Source: Geminicoccaceae bacterium (GTDB taxonomy: Bacteria > Pseudomonadota > Alphaproteobacteria > Geminicoccales > Geminicoccaceae). From it: a stretch of 64,000 nt of DNA. The stretch lies in NCBI GenBank assembly GCA_025062095.1, contig JANXAZ010000010.1:1-64000 (forward strand), written 5' to 3'. Shown here piece after piece: positions 819 to 39,089 of the stretch (positions within the stretch are counted from its first letter, which is position 1; each line of letters opens with the position of its first letter). The position numbers and the translations under genes were made by a program. The notes under the pieces are model-generated. The model searched no databases. It saw only the letters and a list, made by a program, of their open reading frames with translations, and was not told the DNA's origin.

Positions 819-3045
<2,227 letters not shown>

Positions 3046-3049
<4 letters not shown>

Positions 3050-3894
3050 AAACGCCGATCCTCGAGGTCGAGCATTTGACCATGCGCTTCGGCGGGCTCG
3101 TCGCGGTGGACGATCTCTCGTTCACTGCCTTCAAAGAAGACGTGACCGCGATCATCGGTCCCAACGGGGCCGGCAAGACCACGGTTTTCAACTGCTTGAC
3201 CGGTTTCTATCGTCCGACCACGGGCCAGCTCACCTTTCACGGGCATTTCGGACCGGTTCTGCTGGAGCGGATGGACGGCTTTCGCGTGCCCCGTCACGGG
3301 CTCGCCCGCACCTTCCAGAACATCCGCTTGTTCGGCGGCATGAGCGTGCTCGAGAACCTGATCGTGGCTCAGCACAACGAGCTCATGCGCGCTTCCGGGT
3401 ACACGCTCCTCGGTCTGTTCGGGGCGGGCGTCTACCGCCGCGCCGAGGCCGAGGCGGTCGAACGGGCGCGCTTCTGGCTCGAGCGGCTCGGTCTTGTCGA
3501 CCGCGCCGACTGGCCCGCCGCCTCGCTGCCCTACGGCGACCAGCGCAAGCTGGAGATCGCTCGCGCCCTGTGCACCGGTCCGAGGCTCCTGTGTCTTGAC
3601 GAGCCGGCGGCGGGTCTTAATCCGCGCGAAACCGCCGAGCTGGGCGAGCTGTTGTTGGAGCTCCGCGATCGGCACGGCATCGCCGTGCTCTTGATCGAGC
3701 ACGACATGAGCCTCGTCATGCGGATCGCCGACCACATCGTCGTGCTCGACTACGGGCGCAAGATCGCCGACGGGCCGCCCGAGCGGATCAAGCGCGATCC
3801 GCTCGTGATCAAGGCCTATCTCGGCGAGACCGAAGAAGAGGAACTCCCGCCCGAGGTGGCGGCCGATCTCGCCGCGGCCGAGGGTGGTTCCTGA
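3046..3894 (+). CDS. livG: Branched-chain amino acid ABC transporter ATPase LivG
   Basis: This 282-residue ATPase powers transport on the cytoplasmic face. Walker A GPNGAGKTT is at about residues 39-47, the LivG-type signature LPYGDQRKLEIARAL near 161, Walker B LLCLDEPAAGLNP near 183, and the switch histidine in LIEHDMSLVM near 219. GTG at 3046 overlaps the livM stop (GTGA). The protein ends with an acidic tail (EETEEEELPPEVAADLAAAE) that is longer than in many homologues. It should heterodimerise with LivF. Confidence 0.96.
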
Positions 3895-4604
3895 TGCTCG
3901 AGGTGCAGGACGTCGTCGCCCGCTACGGCGCGATCGAGGCCTTGAGGGGCGTCTCGATCCGCGTCGAGCGGGGCGAGATCGTGACCATCATCGGTGCCAA
4001 CGGAGCCGGCAAGTCGACGCTTCTCATGACCATCTGCGGCGATCCGCGCGCCGCTTCCGGCCGGATCCTTTTCGAAGGCCGCGACATCACGCACTTGCCG
4101 ACCTACGACATCGTGCGCCTGGGCATCGCTCAGGCGCCCGAGGGCCGCCGCATCTTCCCGCGCATGACCGTGCTCGAGAACCTCATGATGGGGGCGGTCC
4201 CGACCGACGGTTCACATTTCGAAGAAGATCTGGAGCGCGTCTTCGCCCTTTTCCCGCGCTTGCGCGAGCGTCGGCATCAGCGCGGGGGCACGCTTTCGGG
4301 CGGTGAACAGCAGATGCTGTGCATCGGCCGCGCGCTCATGGCGCGTCCCAAGCTCCTGCTCATGGACGAGCCCTCGCTCGGCATCGCGCCCATCCTCGTC
4401 CGGCAGATCTTCGAGGCGATCGTGGCGATCAACCGCGAGCGCGGTCTTCCCATCCTGCTCGTCGAGCAGAACGCCTATCAGGCGCTCCGAATCGCGCACC
4501 GGGGCTACGTGCTCGCGGGCGGTCGGGTGGTCAAACAGGGTACCGGTCGGCAGCTCCTCGCCGATCCGGAAGTCCGCGCCGCTTATCTCGAAGGAGGGCA
4601 TTGA
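3894..4604 (+). CDS. livF: Branched-chain amino acid ABC transporter ATPase LivF
   Basis: The second ATPase subunit has 236 residues, the standard LivF length. Walker A GANGAGKST lies near residues 34-42, the signature LSGGEQQML near 133, and Walker B LLLMDEPSLGI near 152. The switch position reads VEQNA, with Gln in place of His, which is normal for LivF. ATG at 3894 shares one base with the livG stop (TGATG). The stop in turn overlaps the start of the following DUF6867 gene. Confidence 0.96.
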   Translation: MLEVQDVVARYGAIEALRGVSIRVERGEIVTIIGANGAGKSTLLMTICGDPRAASGRILFEGRDITHLPTYDIVRLGIAQAPEGRRIFPRMTVLENLMMGAVPTDGSHFEEDLERVFALFPRLRERRHQRGGTLSGGEQQMLCIGRALMARPKLLLMDEPSLGIAPILVRQIFEAIVAINRERGLPILLVEQNAYQALRIAHRGYVLAGGRVVKQGTGRQLLADPEVRAAYLEGGH

Positions 4605-4975
4605 TCGCCTTGGAAGAGGTCCTCGGCACTTCGCTCGCGGTTTTCTTGGGGCTCACCGTGGTGCTCGTGGGTGCCGCCGCGTGGCTCACCGGGCGCGCGA
4701 TGGCCGAGCACTGGCGCGGACCGCTGCAGGTGATCGCGGCCTGCTTCGGCCTCGCGATCGCGGCGCGGTTCCTCACCTTCGCCCTCTACGAAGGCGACCT
4801 CTTCTCGCTTTCGGGGTTTCTCTCGACCTGGCTCGTGCTCGCCGCGATCGGGTCGCTCTCGTTCCGCATTCACCGCGTGGCCCGCGTGGTGCGCCAGTAC
4901 CCCTGGCGCTACCGCCGCGTCTCGCTCTTCGCCTACGAAGAGCTGGAGCGTGGGAGCCGTGGCGGCGAAACGTAA
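4601..4975 (+). CDS. DUF6867 small membrane protein of the liv operon
   Basis: The 124-residue protein has three predicted membrane helices and a basic C-terminal tail. The block GRAMAEHWRGPLQV followed by RFLTFALYEGDLFSL matches my memory of DUF6867, a family found in alphaproteobacterial liv operons; its function is not established. TTG at 4601 overlaps the livF stop, and a perfect AAGGAGG lies at 4591-4597; a second TTG at 4610 has better spacing from it. Its fixed position after livF suggests an accessory part of the transporter, which is inference. Confidence 0.85.
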   Translation: MIALEEVLGTSLAVFLGLTVVLVGAAAWLTGRAMAEHWRGPLQVIAACFGLAIAARFLTFALYEGDLFSLSGFLSTWLVLAAIGSLSFRIHRVARVVRQYPWRYRRVSLFAYEELERGSRGGET

Positions 4976-27078: not shown

Positions 27079-27466
27079 GCGGGATCGACGCCGACCCTCG
27101 GCTTGAACCAGGGGCGAGGGGATCCACCTACGGTTACGAGCAGCCGAGGTTCCTTTGCGCGCGAACAGCCCCGCCGCTCGCGCGGCTGCGGGTCCGCAGG
27201 GCCTTCTGACCCGTCTTCTTCGTCCCGATCCGGACGCGTCGCGGGACGGGAAGGCGGTGCGCGATCCCGAGGTCCCGCCGCCCGGTCGTGTCGAGCTCCT
27301 TTCGCGAGCTCGGGGGCACTGGTGACGGCCGGTATCTTGCCCTTCCACGATCGACGGTCGAGAAGTCGACGATCGTCGGGATCGCGCGGTCGCTCGAAGC
27401 GAGCCGGTGGGGGCCCGACGCGCTCGGGCGGGTTCGAGCGCAGGTGCACGAGGAGGAGGGAGAGCG
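27079..27466. other. Intergenic spacer before arsM, 388 bases
   Basis: No protein gene is supported on either strand. An inverted repeat CGAGCTC-N7-GAGCTCG is at 27292-27312, and ACGATCG/CGATCGT half-sites follow near 27346-27378. Either could be an operator for arsM, but neither resembles the typical ArsR site closely. Confidence 0.45.
27292..27312. promoter_or_regulatory. Inverted repeat upstream of arsM
   Basis: CGAGCTC (27292-27298) and GAGCTCG (27306-27312) are separated by seven bases, 154 bases before the arsM start. It could be a dimeric regulator site or a hairpin. Confidence 0.3.
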
Positions 27467-28300
27467 GTGCGCGAAGCGGAAGCGATCCGCGCGAAGGTAC
27501 GCGCGAAATACGCGGCCATCGCCCGGGCCGCGGAGAAAGGCTGCTGCGAACCGAAGGCGGTGGGCTGCTGTGCCGACGGATCGCTCGACATGATCGGGGA
27601 CGCTTATCGCGACGTCGAAGGTCGCGTCCCCGAAGCCGATCTCGGCCTCGGTTGCGGCGTGCCCACGCGCCACGCCGGGCTGCGACCCGGTGAGGTGGTG
27701 CTGGATCTCGGCTGCGGTGCCGGCAACGACTGTTTCATCGCCCGCCACGAGGTCGGATCGGGGGGACGGGTCATCGGTGTCGACGCGACGCCCGAGATGA
27801 TCGCGAGAGCACGGGCCAACGCACGCAAACTCGGGTTCGACAACGTCGAATTCAGGTTGGGCGAGATCGAGAACCTTCCGGTGGCCGATGCGTCCGTCGA
27901 TTGCGTCATCTCGAATTGCGTGTTGAACCTGGTCCCGGACAAGCCGCGCGCCTTCGCCGAGATCGCGCGCGTGTTGAAGCCCGGCGGCCGTATGTGCGTC
28001 TCCGACATCGCGGCCACCGGGCCTCTGCCCGAACCGCTGCGCGCGGCGGTCGAGCTCTACGTCGGCTGCATCGCGGGGGCCCTGCCGCTCGACGATTACC
28101 TTCGTCTGCTCGAAGCCGTCGGCCTCGAGGAGATCGAGATCGTCGAACGCCGCCCGATCCCGCTTCCCGATTCGGTCCTCGCGCCCCGGCTCGACGCCTC
28201 GGAGCTCGCCGCCTTCCGCGCTTCGGGCGCGGAGCTTCTGAGCGTCACCTTGCGCGCCCGCCGCCCGCGCTCCGAGTGTCGCAAGGGGCGGGGCGTCTAG
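27467..28300 (+). CDS. arsM: Arsenite methyltransferase ArsM
   Basis: The 277-residue protein methylates trivalent arsenic with S-adenosylmethionine. It has an N-terminal Cys-rich stretch (KGCCEPKAVGCC near residues 25-36), then a Rossmann methyltransferase domain with VLDLGCGAGNDC near 78 and GVDATPEMIARA. The arsenic-binding cysteines of the family are at their usual places: GCGVPT near 62, SNCVLNLVPDK near 147 and YVGCIAGAL near 199. GTG at 27467 has a strong GGAGGAGGGAG ribosome site. No arsR or efflux gene is adjacent. Its TAG stop overlaps the stop of the Smr gene on the other strand inside one CTAG. Confidence 0.92.
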   Translation: MREAEAIRAKVRAKYAAIARAAEKGCCEPKAVGCCADGSLDMIGDAYRDVEGRVPEADLGLGCGVPTRHAGLRPGEVVLDLGCGAGNDCFIARHEVGSGGRVIGVDATPEMIARARANARKLGFDNVEFRLGEIENLPVADASVDCVISNCVLNLVPDKPRAFAEIARVLKPGGRMCVSDIAATGPLPEPLRAAVELYVGCIAGALPLDDYLRLLEAVGLEEIEIVERRPIPLPDSVLAPRLDASELAAFRASGAELLSVTLRARRPRSECRKGRGV

Positions 28301-30960: not shown

Positions 30961-31727
30961 CAACCCACCCTTCCGACCCCGATGGGCGGCGTTTCGAGCC
31001 GGCCCGCCAAGACCTCGGCGACGTGCCGCACGGCGAGCGTGCTGTTGCGGCGCGCGAGCCGGCCGGCGATGTTCATGAGGCATCCGAGATCGCCCGCGAG
31101 CAGAAGCTCGGCACCGGTGGCCTCGGCCCGGCGCGCCTTGTCCTCGACCATCTTGGTCGAGATTTCCGGATATTTGACGCAGAAGGTGCCCCCGAAGCCG
31201 CAGCAGACCTCGCAGCCCTCCATCTCGACGAGCTCGAGCTCCGAGATCGCACGCAGAAGTGCGCGCGGTTGGGCCTTGATGCCGAGCTCGCGCAGGCCCG
31301 AGCAGCTGTCGTGATAGGTCACCCGACCGGCGAAGCCTCCCGGCGGCTCGCTCATGCCGCGGACGTCGACGAGAAAGGAGACGAGCTCCCAGCTCTTGTC
31401 GGCCACCGCGCGTGCGCGCGCCTTCCAGGCGGGATCGTCGTCGAAGAGCTCGGGGAAGTGTCGGCGCAGCATGCCGGCGCAGGAGCCGGAAGGCGCGACC
31501 ACGAAGTCGTAAGGCTCGAGGGCGGGGATGGTCTGCCGGGCGAGCTCCTCGGTGGTCCGCCGGTCGCCCGAGTTGAAAGCGGGTTGACCGCAGCAGATCT
31601 GGGGCTCCGGCACTTCCACGCGGCACCCGGCCTTTTCGAGCAGCTCCACCGCCGCCCAGCCCACGCTGGGACGGAAGAGATCGACGAGACAAGTGACGAA
31701 AAGGGCGACGCGCGGAGAATCGGCCAT
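30960..31727 (-). CDS. lutA: Lactate utilisation protein A
   Basis: A 255-residue protein with two CCG (cysteine-rich) domains: CCGQPAFNSG near residue 45 and CCGFGGTFCVKYPE near 174, each paired with further cysteines (VTCLVDLF near 11, HDSCSGLREL near 136). Such domains bind the iron-sulfur cofactor of heterodisulfide-reductase-like enzymes. lutA leads the lutABC operon. ATG at 31727 has GAGGA 5-7 bases upstream. No lactate permease or LutR-type regulator is adjacent, so control is not visible. Confidence 0.93.
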   Translation of the reverse strand: MADSPRVALFVTCLVDLFRPSVGWAAVELLEKAGCRVEVPEPQICCGQPAFNSGDRRTTEELARQTIPALEPYDFVVAPSGSCAGMLRRHFPELFDDDPAWKARARAVADKSWELVSFLVDVRGMSEPPGGFAGRVTYHDSCSGLRELGIKAQPRALLRAISELELVEMEGCEVCCGFGGTFCVKYPEISTKMVEDKARRAEATGAELLLAGDLGCLMNIAGRLARRNSTLAVRHVAEVLAGRLETPPIGVGRVG

Positions 31728-31861
31728 GTCGTCCTCGAACCGCTGCGACCGAGAGCTAATTCCGGCTCGCGGCGCGAACAACCCTCCGCGCGGCGGGCTT
31801 CCGCGCGCGGATGCCGCGACCTAAGGGACGCATCGAGCCGCCGGGCGGCGAGGAAACACAG

Positions 31862-32629
31862 ATGGTCGAAAACGAACTGCCGAAAGCGGCGCTCGTGACC
31901 GGATCGGCGCGACGCATCGGGCGCGCGCTCGCGCTCGCGCTCGCGCGCAGCGGTTTCGACGTCGCGCTCCATTATCGCTATTCGGAACGCGAAGCGGAAG
32001 CGACGGCGGCCGAGATCCGCGCCCTCGGACGTCGTGCGGTGGCGCTGCGCGCCGATCTCGAACGCTCGCCGGAAGTCGAAGCGCTCGTTCCGCGCGCGGT
32101 CGAGGCTCTGGGACCTCTAGGCGTGCTCGTCAACAACGCCTCGATCTTCGAGCTCGACCGCATCCGCACGCTCACCGAGGCGAGCTGGAACCGTCACATC
32201 GCCATCAATCTCACGGCACCGACCTTTTTGTGCCGCGCCTTCGTCCGCCAGCTGCCGGAGCGGGCGCAGGGGCTCATCGTCAACATCCTGGACGAGCGAA
32301 TCTTCAATCCCACGCCCAATTATTTGTCTTACACGGCGAGCCGGTTCGGGCTGTGGGGTGTCACCCAGGTACTCGCCCGCGAACTCGCCCCGCGCATCCG
32401 CGTGAACGCCATCGGCCCCGGGCCGACGCTGCCCGAAGCCGGCATGACCGAGGCCGAATTCGCCGCTCTGTGCGCGCGCATGCCCTTGCGGCGCGGCTCG
32501 AGCCCCGAAGAGCTGGCGGATGCGCTCCTGTTCATCCTGCGCGCGCGCTCGATGACCGGGCAGATGATCACCCTCGACGGCGGTCAGCAGCTCGGCTGGC
32601 TCACCCCGGGCGGTCCGGAGAACGAGTGA
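31862..32629 (+). CDS. SDR, pteridine reductase-like (FolM type)
   Basis: A 255-residue short-chain reductase with VTGSARRIGRALALAL near residues 12-27 (TGxxxRIGR replaces TGxxxGIG, the pteridine reductase hallmark that favours NADPH), NNASIFE near 90, NILDERIFNPTPNYLSYTAS with the Tyr near 154, and AIGPGPTLP near 184. Two deviations are visible: the catalytic Lys of YxxxK is Arg (SYTASRF). The family usually reduces dihydrobiopterin or dihydromonapterin and often lies near folate genes; none is here. ATG at 31862 has GAGGAAA upstream. Confidence 0.88.
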   Translation: MVENELPKAALVTGSARRIGRALALALARSGFDVALHYRYSEREAEATAAEIRALGRRAVALRADLERSPEVEALVPRAVEALGPLGVLVNNASIFELDRIRTLTEASWNRHIAINLTAPTFLCRAFVRQLPERAQGLIVNILDERIFNPTPNYLSYTASRFGLWGVTQVLARELAPRIRVNAIGPGPTLPEAGMTEAEFAALCARMPLRRGSSPEELADALLFILRARSMTGQMITLDGGQQLGWLTPGGPENE

Positions 32630-33540
32630 TGCATCCCGCGATCCGCGCGGCGCGCGCGCTCGGTTGGCGAAGCGAACGGGTGCCGGTTCCGGGCGGCCGG
32701 ATCCACGTGGTCCGGTCGGGCGAGGGACCCCCGCTTCTCCTCCTCCACGGTTGGCCCGAATTCTGGCTGGCTTGGCGTCCGCTCATCGAGCGCCTCGCAG
32801 GCCGTTTCGCGCTCCTCGCCCCGGATCTGCGCGGCTTCGGGGCGACGGGGAAATGGGAGTCGGAGCCTTCCGCGGCCGTCGGCCCCGAGGTCCACGCCCG
32901 ACACCTGTTCGATCTCCTCGATGCGCTCGGCATCGCGCGGGTGGGGCTCGTGGGTCACGACGTCGGGGCCTACGTGATGCAGGCGATGGCGCGCCAGGCT
33001 CCCGATCGCTGCGCGGGCCTGTTCTTTTTCGATTGCCCCCATCCCCTGATCGGGGCGCGCTGGGCGGCGCCGCGCCAGCTCGCCGAGATCTGGTACCAGA
33101 CGTTCAACCAGTTGCCTCTCGCTCCGCTTCTCGTCGGCGCGAGCCACGCCGGCTGTCGCGCTTTTCTCGCCCATTTTTTGCGCCATTGGGCACATCGCAA
33201 GGACGTCTTCGAGGCCGAGCTCGACCTCTGGGCCGAGGTCTATCGCATGGAGCACAATCTCGAAGGCGGCTTCGACTGGTACCGATCGGTGGCGGCATCG
33301 CGTCTGGCGGTGATCGAGGGAAGGGCTCCGGCTCCCGCACCGATCCGCCTTCCGACCCGGGTGCTCTGGGGCCGGCACGATCCGGTCCTGCGCGCCGAAT
33401 GGGCGGATCGTCTGCACGAGATCTTCACCGACCTCGAATGTTCTTTCGCCGAAGGATCGGGCCACTTCCCCTTCCGCGAGGAGCCGGAGCTCGCCGCCGA
33501 GGCCGTGGCCTCCTTCTTCGTCCGGATAGGCTGGACATGA
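32629..33540 (+). CDS. Alpha/beta hydrolase (epoxide hydrolase or dehalogenase type)
   Basis: The 303-residue enzyme has the oxyanion-hole motif LLHGWPEFW near residue 41, an Asp nucleophile in VGHDVGAYV near 108, the acid in LWGRHDPVL near 249, and the base His in GSGHFPFREEP near 279. An Asp nucleophile and HGWP point to epoxide hydrolases or fluoroacetate/haloalkane dehalogenases, not to ester hydrolases. The cap domain spans about 135-235. The start overlaps the SDR stop (TGATG). The substrate is unknown. Confidence 0.88.
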   Translation: MHPAIRAARALGWRSERVPVPGGRIHVVRSGEGPPLLLLHGWPEFWLAWRPLIERLAGRFALLAPDLRGFGATGKWESEPSAAVGPEVHARHLFDLLDALGIARVGLVGHDVGAYVMQAMARQAPDRCAGLFFFDCPHPLIGARWAAPRQLAEIWYQTFNQLPLAPLLVGASHAGCRAFLAHFLRHWAHRKDVFEAELDLWAEVYRMEHNLEGGFDWYRSVAASRLAVIEGRAPAPAPIRLPTRVLWGRHDPVLRAEWADRLHEIFTDLECSFAEGSGHFPFREEPELAAEAVASFFVRIGWT

Positions 33541-33890
33541 CCGCGGACCGCGGTCGGCGCGCGCAGCGCGCGACGGGCGCTGAGTGCGAGGGTTCGAATG
33601 CGCGCCCGCTCGGTCCTTGTCCTCTGTGCGGGCGGCCGATGATCGCGGGGGCGAGCGTCGATCGCCACCATCTCGTGCCCAGAAGCCGGGGCGGACGCGA
33701 AACCGTCTTCATGCACCGCATCTGCCACCGTAAGCTGCACAGCCTGTGGAACGAGCGCGAGCTCGAACGGTCGTTCTGCGACATCGAGGCGATCCGTGCC
33801 CACCCCGAGATCCGCAAGTTCGTCGCTTGGCTCGCGAACAAGCCGCCGACCTTCTGGGCGCCGACCCGTCCCGCTCGTCGTCTGCGCTAG
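33537..33890 (+). CDS. HNH endonuclease family protein
   Basis: A 117-residue protein with a zinc-finger-like CPLCGRPMI near residue 28 and the HNH core VDRHHLVPRSRGG near 41 followed by HRICHRKLHSLW near 60. It carries the HH of the first His and the final H; the central N position reads as R/C-containing, so the nuclease may be weak. Such small HNH proteins sit as single chromosomal genes in many proteobacteria, role unknown. ATG overlaps the preceding stop (ATGA). Confidence 0.85.
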   Translation: MTADRGRRAQRATGAECEGSNARPLGPCPLCGRPMIAGASVDRHHLVPRSRGGRETVFMHRICHRKLHSLWNERELERSFCDIEAIRAHPEIRKFVAWLANKPPTFWAPTRPARRLR

Positions 33891-34143
33891 CATGCTTTTG
33901 GCCGCGAGCGCGGTACTCGCGCAGCCGCCGACGAGCGAGGGCGCGCGGCTCGCGCAGCGACGCTGCGCCGCCTGCCACGGCGAGAGCCTGACCGAACGGT
34001 TCGCGGACGCGCGCCGAAAACGAAGTGACGAGGAGCTGGACCGTTTCCTCGAGCGTCATTTCGCGCCCGATCCGCGCGAGCGGCGGGCGATCGTCGATTG
34101 GTCGCTGACCCGCGCCGCGGGCGCGGACTCCCCGCCTCGATGA
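33796..34143 (+). CDS. Small c-type cytochrome
   Basis: The product of GTG 33796 has 115 residues: a long basic lead, a signal peptide (VPLVVCASMLLAASAVLA), then one heme c site CAACHGES near residue 58. The distal Met ligand of class I cytochromes is missing; a His in LERHFAPD near 88 may take its place. GTG 33796 overlaps the HNH gene by 95 bases and has GAGG upstream. The only other start, ATG 33892, leaves a signal peptide that seems too short and lacks a ribosome site. The stop overlaps the CapA start (ATGA). Confidence 0.75.
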   Translation: MPTPRSASSSLGSRTSRRPSGRRPVPLVVCASMLLAASAVLAQPPTSEGARLAQRRCAACHGESLTERFADARRKRSDEELDRFLERHFAPDPRERRAIVDWSLTRAAGADSPPR

Positions 34144-35291
34144 CCGACGGGTCGGAGGATCCTTCCGTGAGCAGCGAGCGTCCGTTGCGCCTGGCTCTCA
34201 TGGGCGATGTGATGACCGCGCGGGGGATCGATCAGATCCTTCCCGATCCCGTGAGCCCCGTGATTCACGAGCCGGTGATGGCCTCGGCGCTCGGCTACGT
34301 CGAGCTGGCCGAGGCCGCAAGCGGCCCGATCCCGCGCGCCGTGGCGTGGGATTACGTCTGGGGCGATCTCATGGGAGCGCTCGCGGAAGCGGAGCCGGAC
34401 CTGCGCATCGCCAACCTCGAGACCGCGGTCACGCGAAGCGAGGATTGGCTGCCCAAGGGTATCAACTACCGCATGAGCCCGGGCAACGTCCCGGTGTTGA
34501 AGGCGATCGACTTGGACGCCGTGACCCTCGCCAACAACCACGTCCTCGACTGGGGGCGCCAGGGTCTTCTCGACACTCTGCGGCATCTGCACGCGGCGGG
34601 CATCGCCACGGCCGGAGCCGGACGCGATCGCGAGGAGGCGGAAGCACCGGCCGTGCTCTCTCTTCCCGGTGGTGGGCGGCTGCTCCTGTTCGCGTTCGGC
34701 CACGGCTCGGCCGGGGTGCCGGCGGACTGGGCGGCGGGACCCGGGCGTCCCGGGGTGGCGCGGCTCGCCGATCTCTCGGCGGCGACCCTCGAGGTCCTCG
34801 CGACGCGGATCGCGAAGGCGCGCCGCGCCGGCGATCGCGTGGTGGTTTCGCTGCACTGGGGCTCGAACTGGGGGTACGGGGTGCCGGAGTCCCATCGCCG
34901 CTTCGCCCGCGAGTTGATCGCGCGCGCAAGCGTAGACGTGGTTTTCGGCCATTCCTCGCACCATCCGCGTCCGCTCGAGATCTTCCGCGAGCGGCCGATT
35001 CTGTTCGGTGCCGGAGACGTGCTCAACGACTACGAAGGGATCGGCGGCTACGAAGAGTTCCGTCCCCAACTCGTGCTCGTCTATCTCGTGAGCCTGAGCC
35101 GGATCGACGGTCGCCTGGTGCGTTTCGAGGCGCTGCCGTTCCGGATCCGACGGTTCCGCCTCGAGCGGGCGCAGGAGGACCAGGCCCGCTGGCTCGCGCA
35201 CACGCTCGATCGCGAGAGCCGCCCCTTCGGTGCGCGGGTTCGCCTGCTCGACGGACGGTTGCGGATCGAGCCGCTCGCGGAAGGCCGCTAG
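34140..35291 (+). CDS. CapA family metallophosphoesterase-like protein
   Basis: The 383-residue protein belongs to the CapA/PgsA (PGA_cap) family. It has LALMGDVMTARGID near residue 19, ANLETAVT near 95, DAVTLANNHVLDWG near 121, VVSLHWGSNWG near 235, and VFGHSSHHPRP near 268, matching the metal-binding blocks of the fold. Members are linked to poly-gamma-glutamate capsule, but many stand-alone ones have unknown roles. There is no obvious signal peptide, so it is likely cytoplasmic. ATG overlaps the cytochrome stop. It precedes phaC by 80 bases. Confidence 0.88.
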   Translation: MTDGSEDPSVSSERPLRLALMGDVMTARGIDQILPDPVSPVIHEPVMASALGYVELAEAASGPIPRAVAWDYVWGDLMGALAEAEPDLRIANLETAVTRSEDWLPKGINYRMSPGNVPVLKAIDLDAVTLANNHVLDWGRQGLLDTLRHLHAAGIATAGAGRDREEAEAPAVLSLPGGGRLLLFAFGHGSAGVPADWAAGPGRPGVARLADLSAATLEVLATRIAKARRAGDRVVVSLHWGSNWGYGVPESHRRFARELIARASVDVVFGHSSHHPRPLEIFRERPILFGAGDVLNDYEGIGGYEEFRPQLVLVYLVSLSRIDGRLVRFEALPFRIRRFRLERAQEDQARWLAHTLDRESRPFGARVRLLDGRLRIEPLAEGR

Positions 35292-35371: not shown

Positions 35372-37171
35372 ATGGTGGAGCGAGCGAGCCGCGACGCCTT
35401 CGACCCCGCTGGTCTGTCCGAGCGGTTGGGCGCTCTCGTCGGGCGGATGGGTCGGATCGCCGCGCGTTGGCTCGAGCGGGCGACGCGCGAGGACGAAGCG
35501 TTCGCCGTCCCGGCGCCCGAAGTGGTGGCCGAGACGCTCGAGGCCCTTGCGCGCGCGCTGCTTTCGGATCCGGATCGGTTCGCGGCGGCGATCCTAGATT
35601 GGCACGGGCGTCTGTTCGCTCTCCTGGGTCGGCAGCTCGCCCGTCGCATCGATCCCGATTTGCCCGCGTTCTACGAGCCCGAGCCCGCAGATCGGCGTTT
35701 CGCCGATCCCGACTGGTCGGAGGATCCGCGCTTCGACACCCTCAAGCAGGTCTATCTCATGACCTGCGCCTGGCTGCGCGAGCTCGTGGCGACGGCACCC
35801 GGGCTCGATGCCAAGACGCGCGCGCGCGCCGCCTTCTACGTCCGCCTCGCCCTCGAGGCGCTCTCCCCAGCCAACCATCCGGCGACCAATCCCGTGGTGT
35901 TGCGCGAGGCGCTCGCGAGCCGCGGGGAGACCCTGTTGCGCGGCCTCGAGCGACTCGTCCTCGATCTCGAGCGAGGTGGCGGGCGCCTTCCTCCCGCTCC
36001 GGGGCGGACGGATGCCTTCGTGCTCGGGCGCGACATCGCCACCACCCCCGGGGCGGTGATCTTCGAGACCGAGCTCGCGCAACTCATCCAGTACGCTCCG
36101 ACCACGGAGACGGTCTTCGCCCGCCCTCTTCTCATCGTTCCTCCCTGGATCAACAAGTATTACATCTTGGATCTGCGGCCGCGCAACAGCCTCGTGCGCT
36201 ATCTCGTCGACAACGGATTCACGGTTTTCGTCCTGTCGTGGGTCAATCCCGGGGAGGACCTGGCGCACAAGACCTTCGAGGATTATCTACGGGAGGGGCC
36301 GCTCGCGGCGATCGAAGCGATCGCGCGGGCCACGGGCGAGCGACGCCTCAACCTCGTCGGCTATTGTCTGGGCGGCACGCTCGCGGCCTGTCTGCTCGCC
36401 CATCTCTGGGCGCGCGGGGAAGAGCGGCGGGTGGCGAGCGCCACCTTTCTCACCACCATGCTCGATTTCGCCGAGCCCGGCGAGCTCGGCGTGTTCATCG
36501 ACGAGCGACAACTCGAGCTCCTCGAGCGCCACATGGCGCGCAAGGGCTACCTCGAAGCGCGTTGGATGCAGCAGGTCTTTTCGCTGATGCGCGCCAACGA
36601 TCTCGTGTGGAGTTTCTTCGTTCAACAATATTTGTTGGGGCGCGAGCCGCCTCCTTTCGACTTGTTGCATTGGAACGCCGACGGCACGCGCATGCCCTAC
36701 ATGATGCACAAGTTCTATTTGCGTCAGTGCTATCTCGAGAACCGGCTCGTCGAGCCGGGAGCGATCACGCTACTGGGTACTCCCATCGATCTCGGCAGGA
36801 TCGCCACGCCCGCCTATTTCCTTTCGACCCGAGAAGATCACATCGCGCCGTGGCGCTCCACCTACGCGGGGGCCCGGCGGCTGTCCGGGCCCGTGCGCTT
36901 CGTGCTCGCCGGCTCGGGCCACATCGCGGGGGTCGTCAATCCCCCCGAGGCCCGAAAGTACGGCTATTGGACCCGCGCGGTGCTGCCGCCGGATCCCGAG
37001 GCCTGGCTCGCGCGGGCGCGCTTTCGGCCCGGGAGCTGGTGGCCGCATTGGCGCGCCTGGCTCGCGCGCTTCGGCGGCCGAAAGGTTCCGGCTCGTCCGC
37101 CCGGAGCGGGGCCGCTGCCCGCGATCGAGCCCGCTCCCGGCCGCTACGTGCGCATGCGCGCCGACGATTGA
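35372..37171 (+). CDS. phaC: Poly(3-hydroxyalkanoate) synthase, class I (PhaC)
   Basis: A 599-residue enzyme that polymerises (R)-3-hydroxyacyl-CoA into PHA granules. The catalytic Cys lies in the lipase-like box VGYCLGGTLA near residue 331, with Asp in STREDHIAPW near 487 and His in GSGHIAGVVNPP near 516. PPWINKYYILDLRP near 260 and the N-terminal domain of class I synthases are present, so the length is normal. ATG at 35372 follows CapA. No phaE is needed for class I. phaA and phaB are not here; phasin is about 19 kb away. Confidence 0.96.
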   Translation: MVERASRDAFDPAGLSERLGALVGRMGRIAARWLERATREDEAFAVPAPEVVAETLEALARALLSDPDRFAAAILDWHGRLFALLGRQLARRIDPDLPAFYEPEPADRRFADPDWSEDPRFDTLKQVYLMTCAWLRELVATAPGLDAKTRARAAFYVRLALEALSPANHPATNPVVLREALASRGETLLRGLERLVLDLERGGGRLPPAPGRTDAFVLGRDIATTPGAVIFETELAQLIQYAPTTETVFARPLLIVPPWINKYYILDLRPRNSLVRYLVDNGFTVFVLSWVNPGEDLAHKTFEDYLREGPLAAIEAIARATGERRLNLVGYCLGGTLAACLLAHLWARGEERRVASATFLTTMLDFAEPGELGVFIDERQLELLERHMARKGYLEARWMQQVFSLMRANDLVWSFFVQQYLLGREPPPFDLLHWNADGTRMPYMMHKFYLRQCYLENRLVEPGAITLLGTPIDLGRIATPAYFLSTREDHIAPWRSTYAGARRLSGPVRFVLAGSGHIAGVVNPPEARKYGYWTRAVLPPDPEAWLARARFRPGSWWPHWRAWLARFGGRKVPARPPGAGPLPAIEPAPGRYVRMRADD

Positions 37172-37521: not shown

Positions 37522-38109
37522 TTGCCCTGGGACCCCAAGTCCGACGAAGTCACTGCCTCCTCGATCTCTGAGGCCGATCGCAGGTGCGAACCGACGTCTT
37601 CCCGGACCGTCGACGAAGAGGTCCTGGAGCACGTCTCGGCTCTGCGGCGATACGCCTTGTTGTTGATCGGCGATCCCGACGAGGCCGACGATCTCGTGCA
37701 GGAAACCCTCGTGCGCGTGATCGCCCAGACCCGTTCGTGGAAACAGGTCCGGGACCTGCGCGCCTATCTGTTCACGACCCTCCACAACGTCTTCGTCGAC
37801 GGCCATCGCCGCCGCCGCGTCCGGCCCAGCGAGGTTCCGATCGAGACGGTGATCGCCGACCTTTTGGCCCCGCCGCGCCAGCAGGACTGGATGGAGCTGC
37901 GGGATCTCGTCGCCGCGCTGCGGCTGTTGCCCAAAGAGCAACGCGAGGTCGTGCTCCTCGTCGGGCTCGAAGGGATGAGCTACCTCGAAGCGGCAAACGT
38001 GCTACAAGTTCCGCTCGGGACGGTGATGTCGCGTTTGTCGCGCGGTCGCGAGGCGTTGCGACGCCTCGTGAGCCAGGGCGGCGCGGCGAGGCTGCGGGTC
38101 GTCAAATGA
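37522..38109 (+). CDS. ECF-type RNA polymerase sigma factor
   Basis: The 195-residue protein has an extra N-terminal tail of about 30 residues, sigma region 2 (ALLLIGDPDEADDLVQETLVRV near 45-66), a linker, and region 4 (LPKEQREVVLLVGLEGMSYLEAA near 131, VPLGTVMSRLSRG near 162). It directs RNA polymerase to a specific stress regulon. TTG at 37522 has GGAGG 7 bases upstream. The stop overlaps the start of the anti-sigma gene (ATGA). The ECF subgroup and promoter are not determined. Confidence 0.92.
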   Translation: MPWDPKSDEVTASSISEADRRCEPTSSRTVDEEVLEHVSALRRYALLLIGDPDEADDLVQETLVRVIAQTRSWKQVRDLRAYLFTTLHNVFVDGHRRRRVRPSEVPIETVIADLLAPPRQQDWMELRDLVAALRLLPKEQREVVLLVGLEGMSYLEAANVLQVPLGTVMSRLSRGREALRRLVSQGGAARLRVVK

Positions 38110-39089
38110 AGAACGCCCAGGGCGCGTGGACGCGGTCGGGGATCGACGAAGGCGAGCTCCACGCTTTCGTCGACGGTCGCTTGACGGGAGAGCGACGCGC
38201 CGCCGTTCTCGCGCACTTGTTGCTGCACAGCGGCGATCGCGAACGGGTCGAGGCCTATCGCCGTCAGCTCGCCGGCCTCGCGCGCATCCGCGCGGGCCTC
38301 GACCGCTACGGCGAGGGCTTCGCCCCGGAGTTGCAGCGCGCCCTGGTCGAACGGATCGCCGGCGCGCGGCGTCATCAGCGGTGGTTGCGCCTGTGCTCTC
38401 TCGGGCTCGCCGCGGGTCTTCTGTTCGGCATCGGCGTGTGGACCGTGCGGGAATGGGCGATCCCGAGCAGTCGCCTGGTCGCGAACGTGTTCGAGCCGGA
38501 TTTCCCCGCGCCCGAGTTTCCTTTCGGCGACGCCTTCGGTCGCGAGGAGCGGCGCGTCGACGGGGATCGCGAACATTCGCTCGCCTGGTTCGCGAGCCAT
38601 CTCCGCGACCAGACGCTCGAGATCCCGGATCTGCGCGAACTCGGCCTCGTCCCCGTGGGCGGACAGGTATTGGACCGGGCGCGCACGCCCGCGGTGCGGC
38701 TGGCCTGGTCCGACGGGCAGGGCGGGATCATCGATCTCTACGTCGGCGTGGTCGCCTCCGATGCCGATCAGGCCTTCACCATGGTCGGCGACAGCCGCGT
38801 GGCGCTCCATTGGCGTCGCGGCCGCCTCGTGTTCGCCCTCGTGGGACCGGCGGGCAGCCCGCATCTGCTGCAGGCGGTGCAATCCGTCCTGCGCGGGATC
38901 GACAAGCCAGCGGGGCGCGCCGTGCCGGCGGGCGAGGCCGGTCGCGCGGCCGAAGAGCCGCGCCCGATCCGGGCGGTGGTCGAGCCCGAGGCCGGCGCCA
39001 ATCCGCCCGCCCTCGAGCGCCCCGCGCCTTCCGCCCCCGCGGTCGAGCCCGCCACGGTCAAAGGAGCGGTACCGGCCAAGACGCTCTGA
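38106..39089 (+). CDS. Membrane anti-sigma factor
   Basis: The 327-residue protein begins with the anti-sigma domain hallmark DEGELHAFVDGRLTGERRAAVLAHLLLHSGDRERV (start near residue 13), which should bind the sigma factor encoded just before. One membrane helix (LCSLGLAAGLLFGIGVW, about 98-115) follows. The periplasmic part (about 130-270) is beta-rich, and the C-terminal 50 residues are Pro/Ala/Glu-rich and disordered. No zinc-binding HxxxCxxC is present, so it is not a ZAS redox type. Start and stop arrangement implies translational coupling with the sigma gene. Confidence 0.88.
   Translation: MKNAQGAWTRSGIDEGELHAFVDGRLTGERRAAVLAHLLLHSGDRERVEAYRRQLAGLARIRAGLDRYGEGFAPELQRALVERIAGARRHQRWLRLCSLGLAAGLLFGIGVWTVREWAIPSSRLVANVFEPDFPAPEFPFGDAFGREERRVDGDREHSLAWFASHLRDQTLEIPDLRELGLVPVGGQVLDRARTPAVRLAWSDGQGGIIDLYVGVVASDADQAFTMVGDSRVALHWRRGRLVFALVGPAGSPHLLQAVQSVLRGIDKPAGRAVPAGEAGRAAEEPRPIRAVVEPEAGANPPALERPAPSAPAVEPATVKGAVPAKTL

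Follow-up and report, generated by a model that had tools for sequence, protein, structure and literature searches.

FolM of Brucella, an alternative dihydrofolate reductase treated in PMC8725004, shares the SDR family with PTR1, and a TGX3RXG motif is given for enzymes of this FolM/PTR1 type in PMC1971073. That paper describes a dihydrofolate reductase gap (no folA) in many bacteria with ThyX, and argues that folM-like genes serve mainly as pteridine reductases. In many Alphaproteobacteria a FolM-like SDR precedes folB-uvrC-pgsA. Two further points of reference are HlpB (YisB) of Bacillus subtilis, a small stand-alone HNH protein whose link to DNA repair in Bacillus is described in PMC3765158, and the co-directed gene pairs with ATGA or TGATG overlaps that are associated with translational termination-reinitiation.

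Here we analyse a run of five genes in a 64,000-nucleotide stretch (hereafter the window) from a Geminicoccaceae genome of 3.3 Mb in 143 contigs; among named genomes, those closest to it come from Geminicoccaceae metagenomes, KatS3mg117 and SKYG96 being examples. The genes and their immediate flanks are as follows.

Start near 31727-31781, - strand: LutA-like CCG-domain gene, upstream of the SDR gene and divergent from it.
31862-32629, + strand: SDR, FolM/PTR1-type pteridine (dihydrofolate/dihydromonapterin) reductase, by NF006597, PDB matches and motif.
32629-33540, + strand: alpha/beta hydrolase (ABH) of epoxide-hydrolase type, by Abhydrolase_1, 8hgu and alignment to 1ehy.
33537-33890, + strand: small stand-alone HNH protein, a distant HlpB relative, by PF01844 and NF058586.
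33796-34143, + strand: putative small secreted monoheme protein (the CxxCH gene), with one CxxCH and a sub-cut-off PF13442 match.
34140-35291, + strand: CapA (PGA_cap) protein, by PF09587.
35372-37171, + strand: PhaC, class I, after an 80-nt gap behind CapA.

A first-pass annotation had read the five as unrelated genes joined by stop-start overlaps, with the cytochrome start lying inside the HNH gene. The frames and coordinates hold, as do three of the four junctions: SDR and ABH overlap by 1 nt (TGATG), and an ATGA overlap of 4 nt joins ABH to HNH and the CxxCH gene to CapA; these are the same 1- and 4-nt overlaps as in pairs with termination-reinitiation. The junction between HNH and the CxxCH gene is a 95-nt overlap and not a stop-start one. 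GTG 33796, the sole canonical upstream start of the CxxCH gene, is nonetheless a candidate start inside HNH, as had been proposed. Unlike typical co-directed ATGA or TGATG pairs, these two genes overlap by 95-119 nt in all six genomes of the genus, measured to the nearest canonical upstream start.

The family labels proposed earlier were well founded for the SDR, the hydrolase and CapA, all strong in Pfam or NCBIfam; the HNH label has a score identical to the Pfam threshold and the cytochrome label one below it. The SDR reaches 339.3 bits against NF006597 (PRK09134; cut-off 281), a model whose members sit beside folB. Its best PDB matches, 5bt9 (E 4e-62) and 5tgd (E 5e-62), are Brucella FolM structures, and it carries the motif as TGSARRIG, so that by sequence it is predicted to be a FolM/PTR1-type pteridine reductase. 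For the hydrolase, matched by Abhydrolase_1 and most closely by 8hgu (E 1.7e-85), alignment to the epoxide hydrolase 1ehy showed Asp111, Tyr156, Tyr218, Asp251 and His279 to be kept; we take these to correspond to the Asp nucleophile, the His-Asp charge relay and two lid Tyr residues, and the protein to be a probable epoxide-hydrolase-type enzyme.

The HNH protein scores 21.4 bits against PF01844, equal to the cut-off, and 49.7 bits (E 4e-13) against the HlpB model NF058586. It resembles HlpB/YisB in being small and stand-alone but lies far below the family's equivalog cut-off of 130. Eight residues (Cys28, Cys31, His44, His45, His60, Cys63, His64 and His68) are invariant in 36 sequences, and a fold search with its structural model (mean pLDDT 75) returned nothing at E<=0.001. 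LR745206.1 and LR756502.1, two records of uncultured phages measuring about 635 and 642 kb, encode homologues that share 45-47% identity with it. CapA is matched by PF09587 at 241.8 bits (gathering cut-off 27) and distantly by the structure 8gqb (E 8e-14); its relatives are also found on plasmids of distant taxa, where three annotated ones have other neighbours. A role for the run as a defence system was considered and rejected, as PADLOC matched none of the five genes.

Tight packing is commonly read as a sign of joint function. We compared the run with the rest of the window. A simple codon-usage caller, applied to the window only, gave 60 genes, 44 codirectional neighbour pairs and a coding fraction of 0.91, skipping the CxxCH gene. 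A start giving a 1- or 4-nt overlap is possible in 14 of the 44 pairs, and in 12 of 41 once the cluster junctions are left out, which yields P 0.078 for at least three such junctions in four; with the caller's own starts the counts are 11/44 and 10/41 (P 0.047), both values being uncorrected for the choice of this locus by its overlaps. The stretch is thus rich in overlaps, and beside it the packing of these five genes stands out mildly at most. Elsewhere in the window, at 819-4975, another gene run has four junctions in succession that overlap by 1 or 4 nt. In a published survey (PMC6728339) overlapping co-directed pairs stand close to 15% in most prokaryote groups and at about 30% in Aquificae, figures whose denominator and overlap lengths differ from those of the present count. 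A promoter and terminator scan found no promoter-like site, and five terminator-like sites, where shuffled sequence gave 3.5 (sd 1.7).

Within the genus the order SDR-ABH-HNH-CxxCH-CapA-PhaC is kept in four of five congeners examined. The fifth, G003, has no ABH at the locus and none elsewhere in its genome at E<=1e-60. The LutA-like and LutB-like flanking genes and PhaC are collinear in all five, and an ECF gene further downstream in four, the G003 contig ending before it. As the flanks are collinear too, order at the genus level is not specific to the five genes, and the collinearity is regional. (The names LutB and LutC for neighbouring genes are our own presumptive assignments, made by recognition.) The ECF-type gene, with sigma-70 regions 2 and 4, lies with the gene that follows it at 37522-39089; the two overlap by 4 nt, and the second is a possible anti-sigma partner. 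At 27407-28300, on the other side of the run, the window also holds a SAM-dependent methyltransferase (Pfam) with Cys pairs near its N-terminus, which we assume from resemblance may be ArsM-like.

The overlaps themselves were compared among congeners by taking the start codon nearest the expected place. Those between SDR and ABH are -1 or -4 in all five ABH-bearing genomes of the genus (the source genome included), and those between ABH and HNH are -4 in four and -10 in one; the persistence of these two overlaps could reflect selection for coupled expression. The junction from the CxxCH gene to CapA is -4 in the source genome only, with gaps of +19 to +25 nt in the five congeners.

Outside the genus the run comes apart. 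HNH is present in 17 genomes of the 60-genome relatives set (source included); of these, 11 lie outside the genus, and a close SDR adjoins HNH in only one of the 11 (G015); two of the 11 contigs are about 5 kb. We also inspected named loci, namely the best 80 of 562 HNH loci, 5 from congeners and 75 from elsewhere, scoring neighbours at E<=1e-4 with at least 35% identity over 40% of the query. Several contigs in this sample are short, and a miss on one of them carries less weight. Among these 75 (best 80 of 562), only Marinimicrococcus flavescens has the SDR beside HNH, with an 8-nt overlap (GTGCCTGA), and none has any other of the five beside it. The adjacencies in G015 and M. flavescens are counted as one case, from one other genus of the family. 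Looser associations within the same best-80 sample are an SDR of 37% identity 1.9 kb from HNH at one further locus of the 75, SDR-superfamily genes within 3.5 kb at nine (mostly more than 0.9 kb away and on the other strand), and PhaC at 2.7-3.8 kb on the opposite strand at five. No neighbour family is common to more than nine of these 75 loci from the best 80 of 562, clusters formed by frames that overlap HNH on either strand having been left out of the count.

CapA occurs outside the genus at E<=1e-100 in G017, G020 and G023, each time on a contig separate from that of HNH, and at E<=1e-50 in six of 240 class genomes (source included); seven CapA neighbourhoods outside the genus have no neighbour family in common with the five-gene run. 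ABH was found at E<=1e-60 in two of 54 relatives outside the genus (G009 and G018), and the CxxCH gene, present in 6/6 genus genomes, in one of those 54, as a weak match (G045). No locus examined has at least three of the five genes adjacent across genera, the pattern that the first-pass annotation had named as support for joint function. The five-gene order is confined to the genus, with the hydrolase missing in one of five congeners, which is the outcome it had named as refuting that idea.

At E<=1e-55, a limit of our choosing, orthologues of the SDR occur in 132 of the 240 class genomes. From these 132 we took 20 loci, of which 18 were chosen by hand from the top-scoring matches beyond the genus; the other two are G031 and G017, a member of the family. 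FolB lies directly after the SDR in 13 (its identity Pfam-confirmed for two), and the downstream genes include UvrC in 15 and PgsA in 14; several of the misses come from contigs that break off early, and G017 is without all three. Here, by contrast with that arrangement, the SDR heads another run, apart from folB: the only FolB of the source genome is on a different contig, C54, with no match to UvrC or PgsA in the 14 kb around it. The source genome has thyX, and searches of it gave no match to folA or thyA; the SDR may for that reason be its dihydrofolate reductase. Replacement of folA by the SDR across the class was considered and set aside: in the 240 genomes, with the SDR in 132 and folA in 81, 46 have both, 86 the SDR only, 35 folA only and 73 neither. 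The two are not complementary, so the replacement idea draws on the source genome alone.

One rival reading is that the small CxxCH frame does not code for a protein, and several results could be taken that way. The gene caller passed over it; its product scores 18.3 bits against PF13442, below the cut-off of 27, and two congener proteins gave no Pfam match; Foldseek with its model (mean pLDDT 64) returned nothing at E<=0.001; and no plasmid homologue was found. The part inside HNH also looks unconstrained: at the third codon positions of HNH, equivalent to second positions in the CxxCH frame, the frequency of differences is 0.42 within the overlap, compared with 0.27 upstream of it. Against this, the frame and its CxxCH heme motif are kept in 6/6 genus genomes, and beyond the HNH stop the third codon position differs more often (0.46) than the first and second (0.28 each), so that a non-coding frame is highly improbable and the CxxCH gene looks like a real coding gene. 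Where it starts is less clear-cut: with the alternative ATG 33892 the leader would, on visual inspection, be very short, and no non-canonical start is common to all six genomes, ATC two codons past the GTG position being found in five. The heme motif apart, the case for a cytochrome is weak; the motif is shared with class I cytochrome c in 6/6 genomes, whereas both curated-profile and fold matches failed, and two further Cys residues in the five congeners' proteins are both absent from the source genome's.

Joint function of the whole run as a new metabolic pathway, for instance one that acts on epoxides or pterins and includes a periplasmic redox step, would accord with the order kept in four of five congeners and with plausible enzyme activities. 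We consider it extremely unlikely, given that one congener lacks ABH, that outside the genus neither ABH (2/54 relatives) nor the CxxCH gene (1/54) occurs with HNH, and that HNH and CapA have other neighbours in distant taxa. A narrower proposal pairs the SDR and HNH in function, for example by coupling folate or thymidylate supply to DNA repair, with the other three as passengers. The two genes are adjacent in two genera, through the 8-nt overlap in Marinimicrococcus and, in the ABH-less congener, an ATG that overlaps the SDR stop by 4 nt and opens the HNH frame; the resemblance of HNH to the repair-linked HlpB and the thyX-bearing genome with no match to folA or thyA point the same way. The pair is still unlikely, as the adjacency outside the genus comes down to the single case in 11 relatives and 75 named loci (best 80 of 562), and HNH falls far short of the HlpB cut-off. 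In its fullest form, in which Geminicoccaceae would co-translate a FolM-like SDR, perhaps the sole dihydrofolate reductase, with an HlpB-like repair protein and the hydrolase, heme protein and CapA would be later passengers, the proposal is very unlikely.

We favour, with a probability of roughly 0.85, a genus-specific directon of five genes with separate functions, and not a shared pathway. Of the two explanations offered earlier, a new pathway or a side effect of compact genome organization, the genus-limited order and the frequency of overlaps in the window favour the second and not the first. The overlap type that varies among congeners between the CxxCH gene and CapA also fits a directon; the SDR-HNH adjacency in a second genus, which shared flanks do not explain, and the mildly unusual packing with the caller's own starts (P 0.047) count against it. 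In such a directon the five genes would probably be co-transcribed, with partial translational coupling by termination-reinitiation as a likely product of tight gene packing in the stretch. HNH directly follows the SDR in the second Geminicoccaceae genus, so these two may have been joined first. In the genus of the run the hydrolase stands between them, either acquired there or lost from one congener, with the CxxCH gene and CapA behind HNH. The kinds of part are already known (a reductase, an epoxide-hydrolase type, an HlpB-like HNH protein and CapA), the putative heme protein being restricted to the genus.

A tight TGATG/ATGA run in dense DNA is, on this showing, weak evidence of joint function until its order has been tested across genera. 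Of the links in the run, SDR-HNH alone was seen in a second genus, and it alone merits an experiment; co-translation of the pair, if true, would tie tetrahydrofolate and thymidylate supply to repair. For the biology of the organism, a FolM-like SDR that may act as dihydrofolate reductase in a thyX genome with no folA match offers one testable lead.
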